DNA from: Nitrospira sp.
Lineage (GTDB): Bacteria; Nitrospirota; Nitrospiria; Nitrospirales; Nitrospiraceae
DNA length: 64,000 nucleotides
Reading direction: 5' to 3'
NCBI GenBank assembly: GCA_009594995.1
Contig: VOPR01000012.1
Span: 1-64,000, forward strand
Both the position numbers and the translations under genes were made by a program. The notes beneath the pieces are model-generated. The model searched no databases and was not told the DNA's origin. It was given only the letters and a program-made list of their open reading frames with translations. Positions 58,340-58,864 of the stretch are shown here, in pieces (within the stretch, counting starts at the first letter, position 1; the number at the start of each line of letters is the position of its first letter).

Positions 58340-58621
58340 ATGAAAATTACGTCCGTCTGGCGTGGCAACAAACCTAACCGCAAGAAGAAGCGGACCGTTC
58401 CGAAACTGAGAATCCGATGGACAGAACTTGGCCTCGTCGATCCCTCCGTGGAATCGCATGAGACGCCGATGGATCAAATCCGTCGTGAAGTGACGGCGTT
58501 GGCCAGTTCTGGATTTGGAGCAGAGACCCGCGCCCGTTCAGAGCAAACGCAGGCACGCCCTGCGCGCGCTCATGCACGGACGAGCACGCCCCGTACCGCC
58601 CGTCGACCATCCGGGTCCTAA
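58340..58621 (+). CDS. Small basic protein of unknown function
   Basis: A 93-residue protein rich in Arg and Lys at both ends (RGNKPNRKKKRTVPKLRIRW at the start; an Arg/Ala/Thr-rich tail), with a more ordinary middle (LGLVDPSVESHETPMDQIRREV). A good ribosome-binding site (AAAGGAG) supports expression. Nucleic-acid binding is possible. It is followed 54 nt later by another small basic gene. Confidence 0.6.
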   Translation: MKITSVWRGNKPNRKKKRTVPKLRIRWTELGLVDPSVESHETPMDQIRREVTALASSGFGAETRARSEQTQARPARAHARTSTPRTARRPSGS

Positions 58622-58675
58622 CGAAACAGGCCTATTCGCTCCCCGATCAAGGAAGACGAATAGAAGGAGGGAGCC

Positions 58676-58864
58676 ATCGCACGAGCAGGGAAAACGACCA
58701 TCGCGAAACGCGATCGAGAGAAAGCCAGGCAAGTCAAACAGCGGGAGAAGGAAGCCCGTCGCGTGCAGCGCAAGTCCGAAAAACCGGACCGCCCCGCGAC
58801 CTCTGGCGGAGAGGATCCCGATCTGGAAGGGTTGCAATGGGGCCCCCAGGAACCCCTGTATTAA
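58676..58864 (+). CDS. Conserved small basic protein with an ATC start codon
   Basis: The frame reads (M)ARAGKTTIAKRDREKARQV, continues as KQREKEARRVQRKSEKPDRP, and ends LQWGPQEPLY: 62 residues, Lys/Arg/Glu-rich, helical. Small proteins with this ARxGKxTxxKRxREKARQxKxxEKxxRRxxRK pattern recur in Deltaproteobacteria and Nitrospirae (from memory). AAGGAGG (58664-58670) lies 5 nt before an ATC (58676-58678). An in-frame TAG at 58661-58663 rules out any upstream start, and the first canonical start inside the frame (a GTG about 30 codons in) would delete half the conserved part. ATC is therefore the likely initiation codon. Confidence 0.65.
   Translation: MARAGKTTIAKRDREKARQVKQREKEARRVQRKSEKPDRPATSGGEDPDLEGLQWGPQEPLY

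Follow-up and report, generated by a model that had tools for sequence, protein, structure and literature searches.

The stretch of DNA analysed here, which we call the window, comprises 64,000 nucleotides of a Nitrospira sp. contig (VOPR01000012.1). It contains an ORF of 62 codons that encodes a small basic protein; the frame opens with ATC at 58676 and continues for 61 more codons up to its stop (Table 1). This ORF is the second gene of a conserved two-gene unit. A preliminary description had proposed that a small conserved gene starts at this ATC, behind a strong AAGGAGG, with an in-frame TAG upstream and no canonical start until about the middle of the frame. Each of these elements was confirmed, the earliest canonical in-frame start being a GTG at 58763 (codon 30 of 62), with no ATG, GTG or TTG before it. 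The motif AAGGAGG-N5-ATC occurs once in the 64-kb window. As shuffled sequences contained it 0.17 times on average, and at least once in 17 of 100 shuffles, the motif by itself is no proof; the ATC start is demonstrated by comparison with the sequences of relatives.

Table 1. Features of the ATC-started gene and its surroundings, and a further ATC-started gene of the same genome
Feature	Position	Strand	Remarks
Upstream 93-aa ORF	58340..58621	+	ATG start; first of conserved two-gene unit; KLRIRWTELGL...IRREV..LASSGFG
Inverted repeat CTATTCG (58632-58638) / CGAATAG (58657-58663), predicted hairpin	58632..58663	+	ends directly before the Shine-Dalgarno sequence
In-frame TAG stop	58661..58663	+	excludes an upstream start in the window genome
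Shine-Dalgarno sequence AAGGAGG	58664..58670	+	5 nt (GAGCC) 5' of ATC
62-codon ORF, small basic protein (IARAGKTTIAKRDREKARQ...EDPDLEGLQWGPQEPLY)	58676..58864	+	start codon ATC at 58676-58678
MFS transporter-acyltransferase gene	G000:C3:188256 (L338); genus members L339-L366	minus (L338)	ATC start and GGAG

When all loci were merged, 118 distinct relatives of the gene were obtained, of which 115 have ATC at the start position and 3 have ATG, no ATT, ATA or other codon being found. Within the genus, ATC is present in all 25 orthologues, with a Shine-Dalgarno sequence at the same place. Orthologues with ATG at this position, which the preliminary description had named as evidence against its proposal, were searched for in 28 other genomes of the genus, and every orthologue found has ATC. 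The same codon is present at 80 of 80 loci of a named genome collection, which covers largely the same genomes as the other comparison sets and includes Ca. Nitrospira defluvii (FP929003.1, L212) and N. moscoviensis (NZ_CP011801.1, L262). The 115 ATC sequences span about 12 genera (g1, g2, g3, g4, g5, g6, g9, g11, g14, g15, g16 and g17) of a single family, Nitrospira and its kin, a count that rests on genus labels assigned by the analysis tool. AAGGAGG precedes the codon in 103 of the 115 sequences, and GGAGG in 108.

The three ATG cases belong to genus g21 (L059), to genus g12 (L198) and to an extra copy in genome G115 (L199). Outside the family, including sister families and order- and class-level relatives, the homologous codon is ATG (L188, L189, L190, L192, L196 and L197), and in the divergent genus g20 it is apparently GTG (L193, L194 and L207). 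Because a few other genera, and the sister families, use ATG at the corresponding position, the codon is confirmed as the start.

Extra copies of the gene in genus g15 differ in their start codon, that of G115 (L199) having ATG and those of G116 (L200, L201) and G103 (L202) having ATC, which provides a natural AUC-to-AUG contrast. Furthermore, an ATG-started paralogue with a DPDLAGMVAGPQPP tail (G000:C14:73412-73570, L002) lies about 15 kb downstream of the ATC gene, and pairs resembling these two genes are also present in G023, G003, G028, G011 and G001.

Translation could in principle begin further upstream, the ATC being merely an internal isoleucine codon. The distance to the nearest upstream in-frame stop varies among relatives, from codon -4 to about codon -109, and in a minority of genomes (L018, L019, L025) no stop interrupts the frame for 60-109 codons upstream. 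Yet 64 of the 115 ATC sequences, the window genome included, have an in-frame stop at most 15 codons upstream, and in the window genome itself an upstream start is refuted by the TAG at 58661. The isoleucine codons inside the same stretches comprise 58 ATC, 19 ATT and 4 ATA, whereas the start ATC never varies, so that codon usage does not explain the fixed ATC; relatives, moreover, carry ATG at this very position. We consider an upstream start highly improbable. As to starts further downstream, the GTG at codon 30 is present in only 7 of the 25 genus orthologues, and none of the canonical starts inside the frame is conserved.

Across the 25 orthologues from the genus, all equally long, pS averaged 0.50 and pN 0.057 (pN/pS 0.11), which corresponds to purifying selection. 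In codons 2-17, 12 codons vary only synonymously and one has a replacement, in a single sequence, indicating that coding constraint starts right behind the ATC. This pattern of substitution marks the ORF as genuinely protein-coding. In addition, the G at +4 is invariant in the ATC orthologues and codons 2-5 are nearly devoid of synonymous change in the genus, which suggests a constraint at the nucleotide level just after the start, from +4 to +14. Such conserved synonymous sites, together with the predicted hairpin, would be in keeping with a structured RNA or a regulatory DNA element in place of a protein gene. This reading is refuted by the substitution pattern, since the synonymous bias extends over the whole ORF, and conservation at the protein level reaches into families in which the gene starts with ATG; we regard it as extremely unlikely.

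Taken together, the strict conservation of ATC, the ATG found outside the family, the purifying selection and the lack of a conserved internal canonical start argue that ATC is the start codon and has been retained by about 12 genera within a single family. Sequence comparison thus places the small conserved gene starting with ATC on firmer ground than originally stated. The encoded protein consists of a basic helix plus a flexible tail, which carries the motif EDPDL.GL.WGPQ.P; AlphaFold predicts a single helix for residues 9-35 with a mean pLDDT of 73. Searches of Pfam, NCBIfam and the PDB yielded no known family, solved structure or fold match for it. That it might bind RNA or the ribosome is a guess from its composition.

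The 93-residue upstream ORF, for which Pfam and NCBIfam gave no match above cut-off, has relatives at 72 of the 80 named loci. Downstream, on the other strand, a 115-residue ORF and a DEAD-box helicase each have relatives at 48 of the 80 loci. The conservation of the upstream ORF directly before the gene would fit translational coupling, in which ribosomes finishing this ORF re-initiate at the AUC and selection of the start codon is relaxed. However, the distance between the end of the upstream ORF and the ATC ranges from 37 to 97 nt among the rows listed and the frame relation differs between genomes, a predicted hairpin sits in this gap in two genera, and the strong Shine-Dalgarno sequence favours direct binding of the 30S subunit. 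Furthermore, accurate re-initiation in E. coli involves IF3 as well (PMC2268962). Coupling therefore appears to be an unlikely explanation of the AUC start.

The 3' arm of the inverted repeat contains the in-frame TAG. In genus g1, all 7 pairs of the hairpin are kept in 18 of 18 sequences, and these sequences showed no covariation beyond the shuffle control (157/500). A different predicted hairpin, GGCGACTC/GAGTCGCC, occupies the same place before the Shine-Dalgarno sequence in genus g17; there, the number of cells with two-sided change (7 versus 2.5) was above that of 499 of 500 shuffles, an excess that relatedness can also cause. No clear hairpin before the Shine-Dalgarno sequence was seen in genera other than g1 and g17.

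Other ATC-started genes were found in these genomes. infC, which encodes IF3, starts with ATC in 35 of the 35 family genomes matched, the window genome included (G000:C28, L118, and 34 others, L109-L128 and L289-L307). Its ATC is followed by GTN and stands mostly behind GAGGTG, and most copies have an in-frame stop a short way upstream. Beyond the family, two class-level relatives of infC (L288, L299) look ATC-started and two order-level ones (L292, L296) look ATG-started; in the infC tree, the internal support of which is weak, a single gain of ATC with loss in the ATG lineages was neither supported nor rejected. Across the window genome, AAGGAGG-N4-8-ATC was found at 47 sites, versus 23 for the reversed pattern, and the subset of sites with a long ORF contained one further credible case, an MFS transporter-acyltransferase (Pfam MFS_1 and Acyltransferase). 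Throughout the genus (29 of 29 genomes), this gene has an ATC preceded by GGAG, 12-13 codons ahead of a conserved PLRGLL motif. Its orthologues in other genera (L407-L419) mostly have ATG in the start region, without a strong Shine-Dalgarno sequence, indicating that the MFS-acyltransferase gene changed to ATC and a Shine-Dalgarno sequence on its own.

The idea that AUC serves as a general start codon was rejected, as a count of Shine-Dalgarno-plus-codon combinations over 0.86 Mb (two complete genomes and the window) gave no excess of ATC (14 versus 12.5 for the control). Furthermore, when syntenic stretches were compared in pairs for conserved ATC starts, the two ATC genes by which these stretches had been selected were recovered; the only other hits were two ATC pairs that resemble chance, the first having in one genome an ATG 32 codons before it or 17 codons after it and the second being weakly conserved. 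AUC starts are therefore rare. A literature search, with most subscription journals outside its reach, found no report of AUC starts in Nitrospira.

A special initiator tRNA reading AUC was not found: in G015, a genus member with a complete genome, the initiator tRNA has the ordinary CAU anticodon, and among the 30 of 43 tRNA hits examined there none looked like an initiator with a GAU anticodon. Near-cognate initiation, in which the ordinary fMet initiator tRNA would read AUC with a mismatch at the third position, is thus the simplest mechanism. The strong Shine-Dalgarno sequence would compensate for the weak AUC start. It is established that IF3 works against initiation complexes formed on non-canonical codons (PMC5472188, PMC2268962); when other tRNAs were surveyed in vitro, it tolerated third-base Watson-Crick and G/U pairs and excluded weaker ones (PMC10158994). 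By destabilising complexes on the AUC, IF3 would keep the yield of the small protein low; when IF3 is scarce, this yield would rise, and production of the protein would run parallel to that of IF3, the gene of which carries the same ATC start codon. The hairpin just before the Shine-Dalgarno sequence could act as a second level of control. We assign a probability of roughly 75% to this reading as a whole, i.e. a real gene that starts with AUC, read by mismatch with the CAU tRNA, compensated by the Shine-Dalgarno sequence and limited in its yield by IF3. The output of the small gene is probably held low or regulated through IF3, and we infer that control by IF3 is the most likely reason for the AUC start. 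A point that counts against this explanation is the existence of three ATG relatives, which indicates that ATC is not indispensable in every lineage.

The AUC might also be used only for a low and constant yield, the level of IF3 being no signal and the sharing of the codon with infC a coincidence. A weak start combined with a strong Shine-Dalgarno sequence would be enough for a small basic protein needed at a low level, and the switch of the MFS-acyltransferase gene to ATC, in genus g1 alone, has no obvious fit to a translation-factor regulon. If only a low yield were needed, however, weak Shine-Dalgarno sequences or GTG, TTG, ATT and ATA starts should serve equally; yet ATC is invariant and the Shine-Dalgarno sequence near-optimal. 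We regard such constitutive use as a serious contender, albeit with less than an even chance of being correct. In line with control by IF3, a more tentative extension, which we consider rather doubtful, is that infC, the small basic protein and, in one genus, the MFS-acyltransferase form an AUC regulon of the Nitrospiraceae, with strong Shine-Dalgarno sequences and a joint response to IF3. If true, such a regulon would tie a lipid enzyme, together with a small protein that may bind RNA, to the status of translation initiation.

To our knowledge, few bacterial genes besides infC have been documented with starts other than AUG, GUG and UUG. With its conserved ATC, a strong Shine-Dalgarno sequence and no usable canonical start nearby, the present gene joins, on comparative evidence, this small known class of bacterial genes with conserved non-canonical starts as a new, well-conserved member. 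It also shares with the genes repressed by IF3 (infC, sigR) the presence, in its own organism, of an infC with a non-canonical start. AUC has been kept across the family while relatives use AUG, and this speaks strongly, on evolutionary grounds, for selection of the weak start. The family, that of Nitrospira, comprises environmentally important nitrite-oxidising bacteria, in which the gene would be a second AUC gene beside infC, the MFS-acyltransferase being a third, independently switched case. Standard assumptions about start codons may miss genes of this kind.

In E. coli, infC starts with AUU and is autoregulated. The Nitrospira gene has a start of the same codon class as this gene and as Streptomyces infC, which starts with ATC (PMC5472188), and has the same start codon as infC in its own genomes; unlike infC, it does not encode IF3, so that simple autoregulation is impossible. 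Its ATG-started relatives (L188, L189, L190, L192, L196, L197) and the paralogue L002 share its basic KR-rich helix and a DPDL.G...GPQ.P tail, and differ from it by their canonical start codon. A close parallel is Streptomyces sigR, which IF3 represses; it has a GTC start (GTC in 32 of 34 genomes, GTT in 2) behind a AGGAGGTG ribosome-binding site that is conserved in this genus (PMC5472188). Both genes combine a non-canonical start with a strong conserved ribosome-binding site in organisms with an ATC-started infC. They differ in gene, codon and phylum; conservation is genus-wide for sigR and covers about 12 genera for the Nitrospira gene, and repression by IF3 has been demonstrated for sigR, whereas for the Nitrospira gene it is deduced. 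In Staphylococcus aureus, cvfC1 (61 aa, AUU), ccpN (AUA) and infC (AUA) all have extended Shine-Dalgarno sequences, and in poor medium the reporters yielded about 10% of what AUG gave (PMC13009471). Like cvfC1 and ccpN, the Nitrospira gene encodes a small protein and has a non-canonical start, a very strong Shine-Dalgarno sequence and conservation across species, in company with a non-canonical infC. However, cvfC1 is the first gene of its operon, with a reported possible zinc-finger domain, whereas the Nitrospira gene is the second of a two-gene unit and its product a predicted basic helix; the staphylococcal genes have other start codons, belong to another phylum and have had their initiation mapped, while the Nitrospira start is deduced from sequence comparison.
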